From NCBI GenBank assembly GCA_009840005.1, contig VXOR01000025.1, positions 1 through 64,000 on the forward strand: a stretch of 64,000 nt of DNA. The letters run 5' to 3'. Positions 50,049 through 57,436 of this stretch are shown here, piece by piece. The translations under genes and the position numbers were made by a program. The notes under the pieces are model-generated. The model was not told the DNA's origin, did no database searches, and saw only the letters and a program-made list of their open reading frames with translations. The stretch is from Gemmatimonadota bacterium. Lineage in GTDB: Bacteria > Latescibacterota > UBA2968 > UBA8231. Every line of letters starts with the position of its first letter. Position 1 is the stretch's first letter.

Positions 50049-50998
50049 GCAAGCGCAAGATTGCAGACGACATGTTGCAGTTGGTGGGGGACACGCCGCT
50101 CGTGCGCCTCTACCGCGTCGCGCCGACCAACGGCAGCCAACTCTACGGCAAGCTCGAAGTGCGCAACCCAACTGGCAGCGTCAAAGACCGCATCGGCGTT
50201 AGCATGATCCGCGCCGCCGAGGCAGCCGGCCAGCTCAAAAAGGGCATGACCATCGTCGAGCCTACCAGCGGCAATACCGGGATCGCGTTGGCTCTCGTCG
50301 CGGCCGTCCTGGGCTACCGGCTGGTGTTGACCATGCCCGAGAGCATGAGCTTGGAGCGGCGACAAGTCATGGCCAGTTACGGTGCGGAGATTGTGCTGAC
50401 ACCCGCAGCCGAAGATATGCCCGGGGCCATCCGCAAGGCCGAAGAGTTCAAGGCGGCTGATCCCGCGGGCGTGTTTATTCCCCAGCAATTTTCTAACCCG
50501 GCCAACCCAGAGGCCCATCGCCGCACCACGGCCGAGGAAATTCTCGCGGCTACCGGAGGTGAGTTAGACGCCTTTGTTGCCGGGGTGGGGACTGGCGGTA
50601 CCATAACCGGCGTTGGGGAAGTGCTCAAGCAGGCCGTGCCAGACGTGCACATAGTAGCAGTCGAGCCTAAGCGCTCGCCCGTACTCTCGGGGGGCGCAGC
50701 TGATTTACACGGCATTCAGGGGATTGGCGCGGGTTTTGTGCCGGAAGTCCTCGATCGGGAACTGATCGACCAGGTCGTGCAGATAGACGACGACGAGGCT
50801 TTTCGCTACACCCGCCGCTTGGCCCGCGAGGAAGGGTTGCTGTTGGGGCCTTCATCTGGGGCCAATGTGGCGGCCAGTTTGCAAGTGGCTAGTGCTCTAG
50901 GCCCGGAGGCCCGTCTGGTGACCATGCTCTGCGATACGGGATTTCGCTATTTTAGCGTTGATGGGTTTATCGAATCAGTGGAGTCAGCGCAAGAGTAA
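50045..50998 (+). CDS. cysK: Cysteine synthase A (O-acetylserine sulfhydrylase)
   Basis: The 317-residue PLP enzyme has the CysK motifs [29 protein letters not shown] with the PLP lysine, [25 protein letters not shown] for the phosphate, and [12 protein letters not shown]. It makes cysteine from O-acetylserine and sulfide. The start at 50045 overlaps the stop of the YyaL-type gene (ATGA). A GAGG site precedes it. Neighbouring sulfur-transfer genes at 54-57 kb fit a cysteine/sulfur theme but are not in the same operon. Confidence 0.95.
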
Positions 50999-53512
50999 CA
51001 TCTTCGTCGTTTGGCGCACCGCGCCAGCGCGCATGATGAGCAAGTAGGTGCCGCTGGATAGCGCTCGTCCTTGATCGTCTTTTCCATCCCAATGAATTTG
51101 ATGCGTCCCCGCTTCCCGCTGCTGATGCAAGAGCGTGCGCACGGCTTGGCCGAGGACGTTGTATATGTGCAGTTCGACCGGGGTCTCGGCGGCGAGTGTG
51201 TAGGTAATCTGCGTCGAACCGTTGAAGGGGTTGGGGAAGGTCGGCGCTAGGGCGAAGTGGGTTGGGTGTTGGGACTCGATGGTGGGCCAAACCGGCTGTG
51301 TCAGCGCGATGCCGCGTGGATTCTGGCCGGTTGCGTAGTGGCCGACAACGGAGTCGCGCACGGCATCGACGATGTGGATCTCGTTGGAAAAGGAACTGGT
51401 GACGTACGCCTGCGTGCCGTCGGGCGAGAAGGCAATGGCCCGTGGATTGCGGCCGATGGCGAGCCTCTTGCGCAGGGTTCCGCTGGCCACATCGACGACT
51501 AGGAGGGAGCCTTCGCTATACGCGGTCAAATAGAGCTTGCGGCCATCTAGGCTAGGCGCGATGGCAAAGGTGCCGCTGACGTCTAAGTCGATGGTGCGTG
51601 CGACGGTTGCGTCATCGGCGTCGATAGCGGTCAAGCGGCCCGTGTCCATGCTGGTTACGTACAGCGTCTTGCCGTCGGGTGCGAGTGCGAGCGAGCGCGG
51701 CTTCGGTGGCACTGGGATGCGGCCAGTTATGCGGCCTTGCGGCGAGAGGACGAGGACTTGGCTACCAGCGATGTCGGTGGTGAATATCTTGTCGGCGGTG
51801 GCGGCAATGCCGTATAGTCCTTCACTCGTATCGGCGATCTCGATGGTGTGCGCTTGGCCTGACTCAACATCGACAATGGTCAGCGCATTCGTGCCCGAGT
51901 TGGTTGCGTAGAGCGTTTTGCCGTCGGGCGCGAGGGCTAGGTCGAGGGGCTGGACCGCGGTCTCGATGTGAGCTTGTACTTGGAAGGTCGCGGTGTCGAT
52001 GATGCGGAGGTCGTTCGAGGAGAGGTTGGATACGAAGAGTTGGTCACCGGCTAGGATCATTTGGATCGGTTCGTCGCCGACGGGGATGCGCGCTAGCTCG
52101 CGGCGGGTGCCCGTATCGACCACGCCGATGGCATCGTCGCCGCGTAAGGCAGTAAAGGCCAGCGGGGCTCCGGTCAGTTCGACGACGGTGAAGTCGAGCC
52201 AAGCGTCCGCATGGGGAAAGTACGAGACCTTGCCGTCGGCACCGCGGGCTTCGATTTGATAGGCGATGCGTGCGCCGACGTGCTGGCCGGGAATTTGGGC
52301 GACGAAGAGGCTGTCTTGCTGCTGCATTTGCAAGTGCTCGACGCTCCCGCCGTCAATCTGATAGAGGAGCCACACGCTGGCGGCATCGCGGGCTGCGACG
52401 CGCACTGGATAAGGACCTTGGGTATCGGGGGTGTTGGAGACTATGGCTATGGGGACTACGAAGGGATAGCCGGGGACGGCAAAATCGGAGATGAAATCGA
52501 CATCGTCGATGTGTTGGGCCGCGGCCAAGTCGAGGACGCGAGCGTAGGTGTCGTCGCGGGCGTTGTCGTAGAACTCCGCGGGGAATCCAGTGGCAAAACC
52601 AGTGAAAATGCCGCCGAAGTTCTCTTCGTTGATTGCTCCGGCAATAGGCGCTAGGCTCAGGCGGTAGCGGCCCGATGTCAAACCGTGCAGCCGGTAGTGC
52701 CCGACCGTGGCGGCACCTAGTTCGGCCCCCGAGACGGTGCTGAACAGTTCGCCGGTGTCGAGATTTTCGGCCATGATGTGCGTGCCGAAGAGTGGCTGTT
52801 GGTCGAAGTCGCGGACTTGGCCGGCGATACTGCCGACGCTGGCTTGATAGCCAATGGCCGGATAGAGAAAGCTGATGCCGGCGATGTCGTCGGGTTCGAG
52901 GGTTTGCGCCTCGCCGGAGTCGTCGCTGTGGTTGAAGGGGTTCATGGTTGGGCGGATATCTGGAGTGCCATCGAGCGGGGTGTGTTCAAGTCCGAGCAGG
53001 TGGCCGATTTCGTGGACGGCCACGTCTTTGAGATTTATCCAATTGCCGGGTTGAACAAATAGACCAGCGGAAAAGCGGAAGTCGCGCCCGTTAAAGATGA
53101 TGTCCGCATCGGTGATTTGGCCGGTCGCAAAATGGGACTGGATGCGGGTTATGGCGATGACGCCGGTTTCGGGTGGGGCGTCTAGATAGCGTCCTGTCTC
53201 GTCGAAGTAGATCAGGTTGCGCCTATCTCTTTGCGTTGGGACGCTGTTTTGGGTTGTGCCCTGATCGACAAATTCCACCCGTGCCGTAGCTACGTCGCTC
53301 CAGACCTGAAAACTCTCGCGGATCAACGCATGGGTCTGAGCAGGGGATAGATCGTCGGAACCAGCGGCGTGAAGCACAAAGGAAATGCGGTCGGGGCGGC
53401 TCCAGGTCTGCTGGACTTGGTTGCCAAATCGGGATTCAAAGGTCTGGATGAGGAAGCCGTGGCTGGGCATGGCGACGAGCAGGCCGCCGAGCAGTAGGCT
53501 GCTAGCGCGCAT
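50984..53512 (-). CDS. Secreted matrixin-like metalloprotease with beta-propeller and sorting domain
   Basis: The 842-residue protein begins with a signal peptide (ending near SHG). Residues about 40-215 are a metalloprotease domain with HEIGHLLGLEH (167-177), the zinc-binding motif of M10 metzincins, and a Met-turn-like PTMNPFNH. A Gly/Pro-rich carboxypeptidase-regulatory-like segment and a beta-strand linker follow. Residues about 440-740 form a YVTN-type beta-propeller (repeats of IDTATFQVQAHIETAVQPLDLALAPDGKTLYAT type). The last 90 residues are a FlgD-Ig/type IX sorting-like domain ending [21 protein letters not shown]. It converges on cysK with a 15-base overlap. Confidence 0.9.
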   Translation of the reverse strand: MRASSLLLGGLLVAMPSHGFLIQTFESRFGNQVQQTWSRPDRISFVLHAAGSDDLSPAQTHALIRESFQVWSDVATARVEFVDQGTTQNSVPTQRDRRNLIYFDETGRYLDAPPETGVIAITRIQSHFATGQITDADIIFNGRDFRFSAGLFVQPGNWINLKDVAVHEIGHLLGLEHTPLDGTPDIRPTMNPFNHSDDSGEAQTLEPDDIAGISFLYPAIGYQASVGSIAGQVRDFDQQPLFGTHIMAENLDTGELFSTVSGAELGAATVGHYRLHGLTSGRYRLSLAPIAGAINEENFGGIFTGFATGFPAEFYDNARDDTYARVLDLAAAQHIDDVDFISDFAVPGYPFVVPIAIVSNTPDTQGPYPVRVAARDAASVWLLYQIDGGSVEHLQMQQQDSLFVAQIPGQHVGARIAYQIEARGADGKVSYFPHADAWLDFTVVELTGAPLAFTALRGDDAIGVVDTGTRRELARIPVGDEPIQMILAGDQLFVSNLSSNDLRIIDTATFQVQAHIETAVQPLDLALAPDGKTLYATNSGTNALTIVDVESGQAHTIEIADTSEGLYGIAATADKIFTTDIAGSQVLVLSPQGRITGRIPVPPKPRSLALAPDGKTLYVTSMDTGRLTAIDADDATVARTIDLDVSGTFAIAPSLDGRKLYLTAYSEGSLLVVDVASGTLRKRLAIGRNPRAIAFSPDGTQAYVTSSFSNEIHIVDAVRDSVVGHYATGQNPRGIALTQPVWPTIESQHPTHFALAPTFPNPFNGSTQITYTLAAETPVELHIYNVLGQAVRTLLHQQREAGTHQIHWDGKDDQGRALSSGTYLLIMRAGAVRQTTKMLLLR

Positions 53513-54062
53513 TGTGTGTTTGGTTTTCAGTCAAGGCTCGCACCCGCGCCAAAAATTGATCGAGCAGCATACCTTGGACGGGTTCGTGGGGCGGTGCCTT
53601 TTTGGGTGCGCTGTGCGACTCGGTGTGCAGCGCAAGGCCGTCTAACTCTTGAAAGACGCGTGGTTTATTGGCGGCGCGGCGCTTGATGGCAAAGCGTCCT
53701 TGAGCTAGTCCGACTGGCCAGGCGTGTCCCAAGGCGTTCGCCGCGGTCAGAAAGAGCACCGCCTCGTCACCGGGGGCGAAGACGGGCATGCCAATGATGC
53801 GGGTAACAGCCCCTTGTAGATGGCCGCCGGGCAGGTGCAATTCCAGTTGCGCGATCGCCGGCCCTTTGATGACTTGGGAGACGGAAAACACGTAGCGGGT
53901 ATAAATCTGTCCGCGCACCCATTGGGGCTGGGCTTGGCGACAGACTCCGACGACGATGCGTTCGGCGTTGGCCGTCAGGGCCGCTAGGTCGAAGCGCTGG
54001 ACTGTCGTGGCTGCCAGCGGAGTGGTCAGCCAGACTAGACAGAATGCAATGCGTGCGATCAT
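53502..54062 (-). CDS. Secreted protein of unknown function, partner of metalloprotease
   Basis: The start at 54062 is fixed by GAGGAGA nine bases before it; the longer frame has no site. The 186-residue product starts with a signal peptide (MIARIAFCLVWLTTPLAATT) and continues with a beta-rich domain (ERIVVGVCRQAQPQWV, TRYVFSVSQVIKGPAIAQLELHLPGG, EAVLFLT). The pattern resembles small domains seen beside secreted proteases but I cannot name it. It overlaps the start of the protease gene by 11 bases, so they are translationally coupled; it may be an inhibitor, chaperone or cofactor. Confidence 0.7.
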   Translation of the reverse strand: MIARIAFCLVWLTTPLAATTVQRFDLAALTANAERIVVGVCRQAQPQWVRGQIYTRYVFSVSQVIKGPAIAQLELHLPGGHLQGAVTRIIGMPVFAPGDEAVLFLTAANALGHAWPVGLAQGRFAIKRRAANKPRVFQELDGLALHTESHSAPKKAPPHEPVQGMLLDQFLARVRALTENQTHNAR

Positions 54063-54151
54063 TGCGCTTATCTCCTCGGGTTTTCGGAGATGTAGGTTTA
54101 GCATATCTTTTTTATAGAATATAGGATAATAGGCTCTTTGGGGTCGATTCA

Positions 54152-54180
54152 TTGACACTTACGTTCACGTCAAGTACATT
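54152..54180 (+). promoter_or_regulatory. Promoter with operator in the spacer (merR operon)
   Basis: TTGACA (54152-54157) and TACATT (54175-54180) are separated by exactly 17 bases, and that spacer is CTTACGTTCACGTCAAG. It is an imperfect dyad with ACGT on both sides of two bases, resembling MerR-family operators (LiuR-type TTNACGTNNACGTNAA). It lies about 35 bases upstream of the MerR start and probably mediates autoregulation of the operon. Confidence 0.72.
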
Positions 54181-54212
54181 GCTTGCCAGAACTTCGCAGC
54201 GAAGGATTCTCC

Positions 54213-54674
54213 ATGCAAATAGGGGATTTGGCCGCCAAGGCCGGGGTCACACCGCGCACGATTCGCTACTATGAAGAACTGGGAATCGTCGAGCCAGAAG
54301 AGCGCACCGCAGGTGGGTTTCGCCTATATTCGGAAGCGCAACTGCGCCGCTTGCAGATCGTTCAAAGCCTCAAGGATTTGGGGTTTGAGCTAGAGCACAT
54401 TCGCGTGTTCTTCAACCTGAAGCACTGCAACGAGTCGGGCGGCGGCTTGGCGCGCGAGCTCGTCGAGCACCTCACCGAGCAAGAGCGGCGGATCGACGAG
54501 CGCATTCGCCAGTATTCGCTGATGAAGGAGCGGAACCGGCGGGCCATTGAAATTCTCAGTGGCTGTTTTTGCTGTACGGTCAAGGTAGTAGAGCGGGATT
54601 GTCACCACTGCGAGGTCTATCGGCGGCACGACGAGGTGCCCGACCTCATCGAATGCGCCATTTACGAATCTTGA
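54213..54674 (+). CDS. MerR-family regulator with Cys-rich C-terminus
   Basis: ATG 54213 has an AAGGA site. The 153-residue protein starts with a MerR winged helix (MQIGDLAAKAGVTPRTIRYYEELGIV, GGFRLYSEAQLRRLQIVQSLKDLGF) and a dimerisation coil. Seven cysteines follow, Cys72, 118, 120, 121, 130, 133 and 148, with six packed in residues 118-148 (CFCC, CHHC). Such a cluster suggests metal or Fe-S sensing, unlike the single-effector-binding MerRs. It starts the iscA-iscS-MoeB operon behind a dyad-bearing promoter, so I infer control of sulfur or Fe-S supply. Confidence 0.87.
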   Translation: MQIGDLAAKAGVTPRTIRYYEELGIVEPEERTAGGFRLYSEAQLRRLQIVQSLKDLGFELEHIRVFFNLKHCNESGGGLARELVEHLTEQERRIDERIRQYSLMKERNRRAIEILSGCFCCTVKVVERDCHHCEVYRRHDEVPDLIECAIYES

Positions 54675-54682
54675 GGGGAAAT

Positions 54683-55006
54683 ATGGTAACTATAACGGAA
54701 GCCGCGGCCGAGAAGATCAAGGACTTGCTCAGCGAACAGGGCAACGAGGAGCACGGGCTGCGCATGGGCGTGATGGGTGGGGGGTGTTCGGGGTTCCAGT
54801 ACAAGCTGGATTTCGAGGAAAGCGCCGGCGACATGGACCACGTCTTTGAGATAGACGGCGTCAAAGTATTTATCGACATGAAGAGCAGCCTCTATCTCAA
54901 CGGCGTGATCCTCGACTACCACGACGGGTTGATGGGGGCGGGCTTTAAGATCGAAAATCCCAACGCCCGCACCACCTGCGGATGCGGTGAGTCCTTCAGC
55001 GCCTGA
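54683..55006 (+). CDS. iscA: A-type Fe-S carrier (IscA/ErpA)
   Basis: The 107-residue protein opens with TITEAAAEKIKDLL and has GGGCSGFQYKLDFEE with Cys35 and a terminal TTCGCGESF with Cys99 and Cys101, the three ligands of A-type carriers. It receives Fe-S clusters from a scaffold and passes them to targets. It starts eight bases after the MerR gene. A scaffold (IscU) and SufBCD are not in the operon, so they must be elsewhere. It could equally be called ErpA. Confidence 0.93.
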   Translation: MVTITEAAAEKIKDLLSEQGNEEHGLRMGVMGGGCSGFQYKLDFEESAGDMDHVFEIDGVKVFIDMKSSLYLNGVILDYHDGLMGAGFKIENPNARTTCGCGESFSA

Positions 55007-55016
55007 GCGACGAGCC

Positions 55017-56189
55017 GTGCAAATTCCAGTCTATATGGACAACATGGCCACCACGCCGGTTGACCCGCGCGTCTTGGCGGACATGTTGCCGTACTTTGGC
55101 ACGCACTTCGGCAATGCGTCTAGCAAGACCCATGCCTTTGGTTTGGCCGCCGCCGACGCGGTCGAAAAGGCGCGGGAAGAGGTTGCCGGGTTAATCGGCG
55201 CACGCGCTCAGGAGATCGTCTTTACGGCCGGAGCTACAGAGGCCAACAATTTGGCCATCAAAGGCGTGGTGCAGATGGTGCCGCCCGGAGCACACATCGT
55301 CACCTGTGCCACTGAGCACAAGGCCGTCTTGGAGTGTTGCCACACCTTGGAGCAGCAAGGGGTGGAGGTAACTTATTTACCTGTGGACCGCAGCGGTCAG
55401 ATTGACCTCGACCAACTCGCGGCGGCAATCACTCCGCGGACGGCTCTCATCTCGCTCATGGCTGCCAACAACGAGATTGGGGTCTTGCAGCCGCTGGCGG
55501 CGATTGGGCGACTGGCTCGCGAGCGCGGCGTCTTGTGGCACTGCGACGCAGCCCAAGCCGTTGGCAAGGTGCCGCTCGATGTGGAAGCGCTCGGCATTGA
55601 CCTGCTCTCGGCTTCCGGCCACAAACTCTACGCTCCCAAGGGCGTCGGTTTTCTCTACGTGCGTTCGCGCAAGCCGCGCGTGCGCTTGCAGGCCCAAGTC
55701 GAGGGCGGCGGGCAAGAGCGCGGCCTGCGTGGCGGCACTCTCAATGTGCCGGGCATCGTCGGTTTGGGACGCGCCTGTCAGTTGGGGCACGAGGAGATGA
55801 CCGAGGAAGCGGCGCGATTGGTGCAAATGCGACGACGACTGTGCGCCGGGTTGGAGGCCGCGCTCGGCTCCTTGGTCGTCAACGGCCATGCGGAAGATCG
55901 CCTGCCGGGCAACCTCAACGTGAGCTTTCTTGGGGTGGACGGAACCGAACTGCTTTTGGGATTGCGCGAGATTGCGCTGTCTTCGGGCGCGGCCTGTTCA
56001 TCGCGGACGAGCGCACCCTCACACGTCCTCAAAGCCATCGGCGTAAACGACGATTGGGCGCGGGCTTCCCTGCGCTTTGGGTTGGGACGTTTTAATACTA
56101 TGGCAGAAGTAGAATTTGCCATTGACCGCACTGTTGCTCAGGTCGAGCGCTTGCGCGATGGTGCATTAGCAATCGAGGAGAGAATATGA
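55017..56189 (+). CDS. iscS: Cysteine desulfurase (IscS/NifS)
   Basis: The PLP enzyme has VYMDNMATTPVDPRVLADMLPYF at the start, TAGATEANNLAIKG, CATEHKAVLECC, HCDAAQAVGK, SASGHKLYAPKGVGFLY with the PLP lysine, and LSSGAACSSRTSAPSHVL with the persulfide cysteine. It removes sulfur from cysteine for Fe-S clusters, thiolation and cofactors. GTG 55017 (QIPVYMDN) is preferred to GTG 54987, which starts 20 bases before the iscA stop; 390 residues is the normal length. Its end overlaps the next gene by four bases (ATGA). Confidence 0.95.
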   Translation: MQIPVYMDNMATTPVDPRVLADMLPYFGTHFGNASSKTHAFGLAAADAVEKAREEVAGLIGARAQEIVFTAGATEANNLAIKGVVQMVPPGAHIVTCATEHKAVLECCHTLEQQGVEVTYLPVDRSGQIDLDQLAAAITPRTALISLMAANNEIGVLQPLAAIGRLARERGVLWHCDAAQAVGKVPLDVEALGIDLLSASGHKLYAPKGVGFLYVRSRKPRVRLQAQVEGGGQERGLRGGTLNVPGIVGLGRACQLGHEEMTEEAARLVQMRRRLCAGLEAALGSLVVNGHAEDRLPGNLNVSFLGVDGTELLLGLREIALSSGAACSSRTSAPSHVLKAIGVNDDWARASLRFGLGRFNTMAEVEFAIDRTVAQVERLRDGALAIEERI

Positions 56190-57373
56190 CTGTTACATCT
56201 AATCAGCTACTAGAGAGCGTAAAGGCCGAAATCGCCGAAGTGACGCCGGCTGAGGTCCAAGCAGCCCTCCAAGCTGGCCGGCCGGTTCACGTCGTAGATG
56301 TGCGCGAGCGGGAAGAAGTCATGGATGGCTATATCCCTGGGGCCGAGTTGATCCCACGCGGTTTTTTGGAACTCAACATCGAAGAAGACGTGACCGTAGA
56401 TCGCGACGCGGAAATCGTGCTCTATTGCGCCGGGGGCAACCGCTCCGCCTTGGCTGCGCGCGATTTGACCTTTATGGGCTACACCAATGCCAAGTCCATG
56501 ATCGGTGGCATCAAAGGCTGGAAGGACGCCGGCTATGCAATCGATCAGGGCGGTCTGCTCTCCGAAGAAGACTCACAACGCTACGCTAGGCATCTCATTC
56601 TGCCTGAGGTAGGGGAGAAGGGTCAGCAGCAGTTGCTCAAGGGCCGGGTGTTGCTAGTGGGAGCGGGTGGCTTGGGTTGCCCAACGGCCCTGTATCTGGC
56701 CGCAGCCGGCGTCGGCAAGATCGGCTTGGTAGATGCCGATGTCGTCGATAAGAGCAACTTGCAGCGGCAAGTGCTGTTCGGCGAGTCCGATCTCGGCCGG
56801 CCCAAGGTCGAGGCCGCCCGCGACCGGTTGCTCGACATCAACCCCGGCATTGAAATACACCCGCACTACGAGCTGTTGACGTCGCACAATATTTTCGAGA
56901 TCATGGACGGCTACGACATCGTGGTCAATGGCTGCGACAACTTTCCGACCCGCTATTTGGTCAATGACGCGGCTGTAATGCAGAAAAAGCCCGTGGTTGA
57001 CGGCAGCATCTTTCGCTTTGAGGGCCAAGCCACCGTGTACGTGCCCGGGGATGGCCCGTGCTATCGCTGCCTCTATCCCGAGCCGCCGCCGCCCGGAGAG
57101 GTGCCAAGCTGCGCCGAGGGCGGGGTCTTAGGGGTCTTACCCGGCATCATCGGGTTGGTGCAGGCTACCGAGGTCGTCAAGCTGCTGTTGGGGCAGGGCA
57201 CTTCCTTAGTAGGGAGGGTAATGCTCTACGACGCGCTGGAGATGAAATTCCGCGCACTCAAGCTCCGGCGAGACAGCGAGTGCCCAGTATGCGGCGACAA
57301 CCCGACCGTCACCGAGTTGATTGACTACGAGCAGTTTTGCGGCTTGCCTTCGCACAGCGAGGCCGCAGGTTAA
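56186..57373 (+). CDS. Rhodanese-MoeB/ThiF fusion (sulfur-carrier adenylyltransferase)
   Basis: The 395-residue protein has an N-terminal rhodanese domain (residues 20-118, with YCAGGNRSA and persulfide Cys81) joined to an E1-like MoeB/ThiF domain. The latter has SQRYARHLILPEVGEKGQQQLLKGRVLLVGAGGLGC, DADVVDKSNLQRQVLFGESDLGRPKVEA, NGCDNFPTRYLVND, and CYRCLYPEP and CPVCG zinc-type pairs. It should adenylate and thiolate a ubiquitin-like sulfur carrier (MoaD/ThiS type), taking sulfur from the upstream cysteine desulfurase. Most MoeB-R proteins carry the rhodanese at the C-terminus; here it is at the front. Confidence 0.92.
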   Translation: MTVTSNQLLESVKAEIAEVTPAEVQAALQAGRPVHVVDVREREEVMDGYIPGAELIPRGFLELNIEEDVTVDRDAEIVLYCAGGNRSALAARDLTFMGYTNAKSMIGGIKGWKDAGYAIDQGGLLSEEDSQRYARHLILPEVGEKGQQQLLKGRVLLVGAGGLGCPTALYLAAAGVGKIGLVDADVVDKSNLQRQVLFGESDLGRPKVEAARDRLLDINPGIEIHPHYELLTSHNIFEIMDGYDIVVNGCDNFPTRYLVNDAAVMQKKPVVDGSIFRFEGQATVYVPGDGPCYRCLYPEPPPPGEVPSCAEGGVLGVLPGIIGLVQATEVVKLLLGQGTSLVGRVMLYDALEMKFRALKLRRDSECPVCGDNPTVTELIDYEQFCGLPSHSEAAG

Positions 57374-57398
57374 GCTATACTCGCAGTGTTGTTTGTAC

Positions 57399-57436
57399 GG
57401 CGCTCCCCCCTACCTAGGGGAGCGCCTTTTCTTTTG
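57399..57436 (+). terminator. Rho-independent terminator after the MerR-isc-moeB operon
   Basis: A perfect 10-bp stem (GGCGCTCCCC, 57399-57408, with GGGGAGCGCC, 57417-57426), an 8-base loop and a TTTTCTTTT tract follow the MoeB-like gene by 25 bases. It separates this operon from trmB. Confidence 0.92.

Follow-up and report, generated by a model that had tools for sequence, protein, structure and literature searches.

Most of what is known of MerR-family regulators concerns SoxR and the efflux of metals and drugs; the regulators described for isc and suf operons are mostly of the Rrf2 type. IscR gives isc negative feedback, and the classical ISC operon holds iscU, hscA/B, fdx, and iscR along with iscS and iscA. 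The cluster motif of SoxR is CX2CXCX5C (PMC8063818), MerR activators work on promoters with 19-20 bp spacers (PMC8113463), and a described sulfur relay leads from NFS1 through the MOCS3 rhodanese to URM1/MOCS2A (PMC5372717). A literature search covering titles and abstract starts of open-licence papers returned no description of MerR control of isc-type genes.

The window (the whole analysed stretch of DNA, 64,000 nucleotides) contains a compact operon headed by a MerR-family gene (Table 1). Pfam and NCBIfam profiles agree with the family assignments, and the intergenic gaps from the MerR gene to the rhodanese-MoeB gene are 8, 10, and −4 bases. Gene coordinates and profile families thus confirm the original prediction of a four-gene operon with gaps of −4 to 10. 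In comparison with the classical ISC set, the operon has the desulfurase and the A-type carrier only, with no iscU, hscA/B, fdx, or iscR.

Table 1. Coordinates of the operon genes and their flanking signals in the window
Feature	Coordinates	Strand	Details
Promoter, 29 bp	54152-54180	+	−35 TTGACA 54152-54157; 17-bp spacer CTTACGTTCACGTCAAG; −10 TACATT 54175-54180
MerR-family regulator gene	54213-54674	+	153 aa; PF13411, PF00376, and PF09278 over cut-off
A-type Fe-S carrier gene, ErpA type	54683-55006	+	NCBIfam NF010147 ErpA
Cysteine desulfurase gene, IscS/NifS-like	55017-56189	+	GTG start; Pfam PF00266
Rhodanese-MoeB fusion gene	56186-57373	+	NCBIfam NF006444; rhodanese domain N-terminal
Intrinsic terminator	57399-57426	+	hairpin and T-tract; followed in the window by trmB

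As for the proteins, the carrier scores 124 bits against the ErpA cut-off of 117 and has Cys 35, 99, and 101, and the fusion protein scores 538 bits against a cut-off of 449, which makes it PRK08762-type, with Rhodanese and ThiF domains and the motifs YCAGGNRS (C81), GAGGLG, two CXXC pairs, and SCAEGG (C309) in this order. The desulfurase has an SSGAAC loop; its best NCBIfam profile is PRK14012 (510.1 bits, below the cut-off of 548), and it also stays below the IscS equivalog cut-off (TIGR02006, 489.9 vs 643.2). The route of sulfur through these proteins can be proposed from their families. The desulfurase would draw sulfur from cysteine as persulfide, C81 of the rhodanese domain would accept it, and the MoeB domain would adenylate the C-terminal glycine of ThiS-fold carriers (MoaD-like, CysO-like) encoded elsewhere; these would depart as thiocarboxylates toward molybdopterin and cysteine, and tRNA thiolation might be a further destination. 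Fe-S clusters would pass from ErpA to client enzymes. Such a route resembles the NFS1-MOCS3-URM1/MOCS2A relay (PMC5372717) in its sequence of desulfurase, rhodanese, E1, and ubiquitin-like carrier. It differs in the N-terminal position of the rhodanese domain and in having desulfurase, E1, ErpA, and MerR encoded in a single operon.

Gene order was compared across 64 genomes of the phylum. The succession MerR-carrier-desulfurase occurs in the window and in 23/23 genomes with a close MerR homolog, and in 22 of these 23 it is followed by Rhd/MoeB, either complete or truncated at the contig end; in the exception, G001, the contig stops within the desulfurase gene. Lack of a conserved order in relatives had been named beforehand as a refuting outcome, as had a MerR gene always lying outside the operon; the MerR-carrier-desulfurase order is conserved, and MerR heads the operon in all 23 genomes. 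The same 23/23 order rules out MerR as a chance neighbour. Part of the order is plain synteny, with cysK, trmB, mraZ, and mraW likewise kept as neighbours. Distribution outside the phylum was assessed by an exact-word contig scan and two protein searches, with the best 120 proteins of each. The exact-word scan of genome contigs gave 13 close relatives, all metagenome-assembled genomes, labelled Latescibacteria/Latescibacterota, Gemmatimonadetes/Gemmatimonadota/Gemmatimonadaceae, or Handelsmanbacteria. Loci L014 and L015, remote matches to the HTH only, are left out of all counts.

The operon had also been described as bounded by one promoter and one terminator. Both signals are present, the terminator hairpin having 10 pairs, 9 of them GC, before its T-tract. 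A scan of the window reports 5 promoter-like sites versus 1.4 (sd 1.1) expected and 5 terminator-like sites versus 4.9 (sd 2.2) expected; by itself it proves little, and the comparison among relatives decides. Both Rhd/MoeB and trmB are visible in 20 loci (window included); by our own hairpin rule, applied with no shuffle control, 18 of them have a terminator-like hairpin between the two genes. The hairpins of L005 and L086 have 6 matched pairs only, and none was found between these genes in L010 and L012.

On the promoter side, the block at 54152-54180 is a conserved island in 12 loci, with pairwise identity of 0.93-0.97 in its three ten-base blocks, compared with 0.74 directly upstream and 0.34-0.50 in the remaining flanking blocks, values lowered by indels because the comparison is ungapped. 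In 22 of 24 loci, a spacer of 17 bp gives the best match; within the window's spacer lies the likely MerR operator, ACGT-TC-ACGT. With up to 3 mismatches, TTGACAYTTACGTTCACGTCAAG occurs a single time, at the operon's own site, in each of the 11 genomes that share this promoter type, and the reversed-pattern control gives 0; this search thus found no further targets of MerR in these 11 of the 23 genomes. The remaining 12 keep the hexamers and their spacing with different spacer letters, and the candidate operator therefore rests on 11 close genomes. When spacer dyads were compared with spacer shuffles, 0 of 14 isc-type promoters were significant at 0.05 (window p 0.535; the best, L077, p 0.078).

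Conservation of the block suggests that MerR binds there, and the length of the spacer bears on how it would act. Activation is the usual mode of the MerR family, according to PMC8113463, and the spacer does fall inside the conserved block, so a loaded form that distorts the promoter and switches the operon on would be in keeping with both. However, a 17-bp spacer between good hexamers should already work as a promoter, and we consider activation improbable. The spacer is shorter than the 19-20 bp of MerR activators, and this favours repression as the proposed mode of action of MerR.

Regarding the regulator itself, MerR-family membership (HTH and dimer helix) is supported by Pfam scores over cut-off (71, 55, and 27 bits for PF13411, PF00376, and PF09278, respectively). 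A structure search showed mostly MerR-family chains among its rows, which informs on the fold only. The AF2 model has a mean pLDDT of 87.8, with confidence dropping from 80 to 64 across residues 111-150. The protein has seven cysteines (72, 118, 120, 121, 130, 133, and 148), as originally counted; as a possible sensor site, however, the seven reduce to four. C118, C121, C130, and C133 form a C-terminal CX2C-X8-CX2C motif after a long helix (76-116) and are invariant in a 36-row alignment of the window MerR and 35 proteins picked for spread from the best 120 listed, and C72, C120, and C148 are absent from its invariant and near-invariant lists. The motif is present in 125 of 128 MerR homologs, these being all proteins listed by two protein searches with at least 120 matches each.

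Zinc and an Fe-S cluster would each fit the predicted Cys4 site, which may hold either a metal or a cluster. One alternative takes it as a structural or sensory zinc site in a regulator that responds, as ZntR, CueR, and CadR do, to zinc, cadmium, or copper, the operon being induced to repair the damage these metals do to Fe-S and thiols. These share the MerR fold and include the highest family scores of this protein, yet the scores reach about half of the equivalog cut-offs or less (ZntR 74.8 vs 143 and 68.9 vs 168, CueR 69.2 vs 147, CadR-PbrR 55.1 vs 151). C72, which we take to be the position of the dimer-helix metal Cys in ZntR and MerR, lacks conservation, the four genes of the operon include none for efflux, and the spacer is 17 bp. 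A metal sensor of this kind is thus rather unlikely. SoxR carries its cluster in the same region as these four Cys (PMC8063818), but with CX2CXCX5C in place of CX2C-X8-CX2C; the SoxR profile gives 41.8 bits vs a cut-off of 116.9, and this MerR differs further by the 17-bp spacer and its place at the head of a sulfur operon.

The cysteines might instead sense persulfide or sulfane sulfur from the desulfurase and rhodanese, as a product-feedback switch. By family, the desulfurase and rhodanese-E1 make or move persulfide sulfur, and four invariant Cys are at hand. In contrast, CX2C-X8-CX2C appears to resemble a single four-ligand site, not a two-Cys switch, and a cousin MerR with identical Cys spacing has, in the 8 genomes compared, flanks where nothing matches the desulfurase, carrier, or Rhd/MoeB of the window, which leaves persulfide sensing with little probability. 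This cousin lies outside any isc operon in 8/8 genomes with flanks tested (of 16) and adjoins a sigma-factor gene in 3 loci read gene by gene. Its promoter has an ACGT core resembling the window's, and of its 6 loci, 5 have a 17-bp spacer as the best match and L089 has one tied as second. The spacer is a perfect palindrome in 2 of the 6 (L088 and L092); against shuffles, the dyads of the 6 promoters are strong in 2, at 0.043 in 1, and not significant in 3.

The operon had further been called self-contained, a view that the relatives' genomes contradict. In all nine examined (of 23), SUF genes form a cluster of their own next to an Rrf2 regulator gene, two NifU_N proteins are encoded away from the operon, and three or four ThiS-type carriers are unlinked to it. 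One carrier lies within a group read as cysM-JAB-CysO-cysK. The reported absence of IscU, IscR, and MoaD/ThiS-like genes thus holds for the operon and fails for the relatives' genomes. SufS-like genes adjoin suf, and in 4/9 relatives another IscS/NifS-like gene (39-48% identical) occurs as well, so the operon's desulfurase is one among several. The operon as the basis of the cell's Fe-S supply is ruled out in these nine, all with SUF; given the SUF, NifU_N, and carrier genes elsewhere, it would be a sulfur-relay branch and not a full Fe-S factory. In each of the nine, the operon's own E1 is the one strong MoeB-type activator found, although remote ThiF proteins could be missed because the count used one protein at E 1e-8. 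This count leaves out weak ThiF-part matches in G008 and G003 (~40 bits), a rhodanese-only match in G009, and a broken rhodanese-part match in G007; G001 gave a fragment only.

An autoregulated sulfur-relay operon under a MerR repressor with a predicted Cys4 metal or Fe-S site is the reading we prefer, and we hold it about as apt to stand as to fall. The MerR dimer would sit in the promoter spacer and repress in one state of the C118/C121/C130/C133 site, thought to be cluster- or metal-loaded, and would release the promoter once the site is emptied or oxidised. This would be negative feedback of the IscR kind, built from a MerR protein. The likeness to IscR/Rrf2 control of isc/suf is that a regulator gene heads a desulfurase operon, with probable negative feedback; the difference is that MerR belongs to another protein family. 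With an Rrf2 gene beside suf in 9/9 relatives, both regulator kinds coexist. A broader and more tentative proposal, somewhat less apt to be right than wrong, is that CX2C-X8-CX2C marks a second class of Fe-S sensor within the MerR family, which represses promoters with 17-bp spacers and has assumed IscR-like feedback control of a desulfurase/E1 operon in one Latescibacterota lineage, the cousin standing beside a sigma factor in other genomes of the phylum. If true, the joining of MerR to a desulfurase, ErpA, and the one strong E1 would give a cell another means of coupling its supply of thiocarboxylate carriers to Fe-S or metal status.

According to record titles, the phylum is represented here by metagenome-assembled genomes only. 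Elsewhere in the phylum, iscS-mrp-rhd/moeB occurs without this MerR, and in some of these genomes an in-frame TGA takes the place of the catalytic Cys codon of MoeB.

The four-gene operon is real and conserved, and the positions originally predicted for its genes, promoter and terminator were all borne out on re-reading the window. Intergenic gaps within it are 8, 10 and −4 bases. The first gene product is assigned to the MerR family (PF13411 and others), the A-type carrier scores above the cut-off of the ErpA model, and the rhodanese-ThiF protein (Rhd/MoeB, the operon's E1) above that of PRK08762 MoeB. As for the desulfurase, it is of the class V aminotransferase type, near IscS but below the curated IscS cut-offs.

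Features of the operon, its upstream neighbors and related Rhd/MoeB genes
Feature	Position or locus	Strand	Description
Promoter	54152-54180	+	TTGACA-17-TACATT, spacer CTTACGTTCACGTCAAG; almost unchanged across the window and 11 genomes
MerR	54213-54674	+	start codon ATG
A-type carrier	54683-55006	+	ErpA-type
Desulfurase	55017-56189	+	IscS-like; start probably GTG 55017
Rhd/MoeB	56186-57373	+	rhodanese-MoeB fusion
Terminator hairpin	57399-57426	
Upstream gene	50984-53512	−	large secreted-looking protein, metalloprotease-like start, propeller-like repeats (by eye)
Upstream gene	53502-54065	−	smaller protein, no Pfam match
TGA at MoeB catalytic Cys	L153/L160		genome G042
TGA at MoeB catalytic Cys	L154		genome G041
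TGA at MoeB catalytic Cys	L155		genome G039
TGA at MoeB catalytic Cys	L161		genome G047
TGA at MoeB catalytic Cys	L162		genome G048
TGA at MoeB catalytic Cys	L166		genome G035

A scan of genome contigs yielded 13 close MerR relatives, and a profile search covered 64 genomes of the phylum of G005, a relative in which locus L007 bears the title "uncultured Latescibacteria bacterium". MerR matches at E ≤ 1e-20 are present in 39 of the 64 genomes and form two sets, a close one of 23 (E ≤ 4.4e-69) and a set of 16 more distant cousins (E from 1.6e-46 to 8.1e-38). The original prediction had proposed looking for the same gene order in relatives, and it is found there: the A-type carrier and then the desulfurase follow MerR in 23/23 close-set genomes, with Rhd/MoeB next, whole or cut, in 22, the exception being G001, whose contig stops within the desulfurase gene. 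Distances differ among loci (8–145 bases between MerR and the next gene, from −4 to 132 ahead of Rhd/MoeB): the genes are closely coupled in the relatives nearest to the window, less so in others. The remaining 25 genomes have no MerR match at this threshold; among them, G064 has Rhd/MoeB together with the last part of a desulfurase gene where a contig ends, and in G059 an E1 has its rhodanese part at the opposite end, with no desulfurase match adjoining.

Outside the operon, cysK is found upstream in 20 of 21 genomes with sufficient DNA (not seen in locus L086), trmB downstream in 20/20 loci reaching that far, window counted, and mraZ and mraW after trmB wherever contigs extend far enough. 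Since these genes are also kept, part of the operon order is inherited synteny. The two minus-strand upstream genes are likewise retained in many relatives.

Pairwise identity among the window and 11 genomes is 0.93–0.97 in three ten-base promoter blocks, 0.74 just upstream and 0.34–0.50 in other flanking blocks; the comparison is ungapped, flank values being low partly through indels, and a gapped alignment was also made. The promoter sequence occurs as a single site in each of the 11 genomes with at most 3 mismatches (reversed control, 0), and the remaining 12 of the 23 retain the hexamers and 17 bp with different spacer letters. The best-matching spacer length is 17 bp in 22 of 24 loci; in L084 the hexamers at the corresponding position are weaker, and a 20-bp spacer match ties in L085. 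Cousin promoters are of the 17-bp type in the six loci tested, and the spacer holds a perfect palindrome in L088 and L092 (10/10 pairs, ≤1/2000 shuffles), a weaker one in L089 (p 0.043) and none in L087, L090 and L091. A dyad test against shuffles gave no significant result in 14 promoters of operon loci (window p 0.535). Because the ACGT core and its place are common to operon and cousin promoters, the block is likely the MerR operator.

The four-Cys spacing CX2C-X8-CX2C is seen by eye in 8/8 cousins compared. Flanks were tested for 8 of the 16 cousins (L040-L046, L087-L092); neither the carrier nor the desulfurase nor Rhd/MoeB of the window has a match in them, though some contigs end nearby. 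Gene-by-gene reading of three loci (L087, L089, L091) places the cousin directly before a gene whose translation reads as a sigma-70-type factor. It is about as likely as not that MerR represses its own operon and has a Cys4 site for a metal or cluster; Fe-S as the ligand is less likely than not.

The cell setting was surveyed in nine of the 23 genomes (G001-G009). SUFBD is present in all nine, and its contig also carries NifU_N and Rrf2 genes, separated by a few hundred bases; each genome has a second NifU_N at a separate place. Another Rrf2 scores above cut-off elsewhere in G005 and G007. Each genome encodes three ThiS-type proteins, or four in the case of G008, all of them away from the operon; the C-termini of the three in G005 are GG, GGN and GGAS. 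The operon supplies the only strong MoeB-type match (a fragment in G001) in 9/9, and its A-type carrier is the top PF01521 match in 9/9; a weaker second PF01521 match in 8/9, in a frame of 190-268 aa, is perhaps NfuA. Besides SufS-like genes by suf, a second IscS/NifS-like gene (39–48% identity) accompanies the operon's desulfurase in G004, G005, G008 and G009; G008 has two such genes, and one in G009 contains a stop. SUF, the separate carriers and the sole strong E1 suggest that the operon would activate carrier-bound sulfur beside SUF and itself provide the sulfur and Fe-S for this. This step resembles the known NFS1-MOCS3 sulfur relay (PMC5372717). Locus L096:4491-7222, which encodes one of the ThiS-type proteins, carries cysM, a JAB protease, a CysO-like carrier ending in GGN and cysK beside aspS (identities read from the genes), a thiocarboxylate cysteine pathway that would require an E1 such as the window's.

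Rhd/MoeB surroundings were also read in 13 further genomes from this phylum (L147-L163, L166, L167). A Mrp-like gene, named from translation, precedes Rhd/MoeB in 13/13, and a desulfurase precedes it in 12, the G035 contig ending first; the Mrp-like gene stands in place of the ErpA-MerR head. Neither MerR nor the carrier of the window has a match in these stretches (flanks of 1.5 kb for some, ~7 kb for others). The iscS...rhd/moeB pair with an adjoining Fe-S protein may be older, and MerR and ErpA particular to the window's lineage.

Related Rhd/MoeB genes of 12 genomes contain one in-frame TGA, which falls at the MoeB catalytic Cys position (S*DEAGV for SCAEGGV) in the six genomes where its place was checked; six other genomes checked retain this Cys. 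The TGA probably encodes selenocysteine, and a MoeB selenoprotein family has already been published (PMC1088965). A hairpin follows the TGA in 5/5 loci folded, a count without shuffle control. The rhodanese active-site Cys is missing in 12 of 13 genomes checked and present in G027. One Rhd/MoeB gene, from a single genome (L145, G054:C9), has one in-frame TAG, which may reflect an error or decay of the copy.
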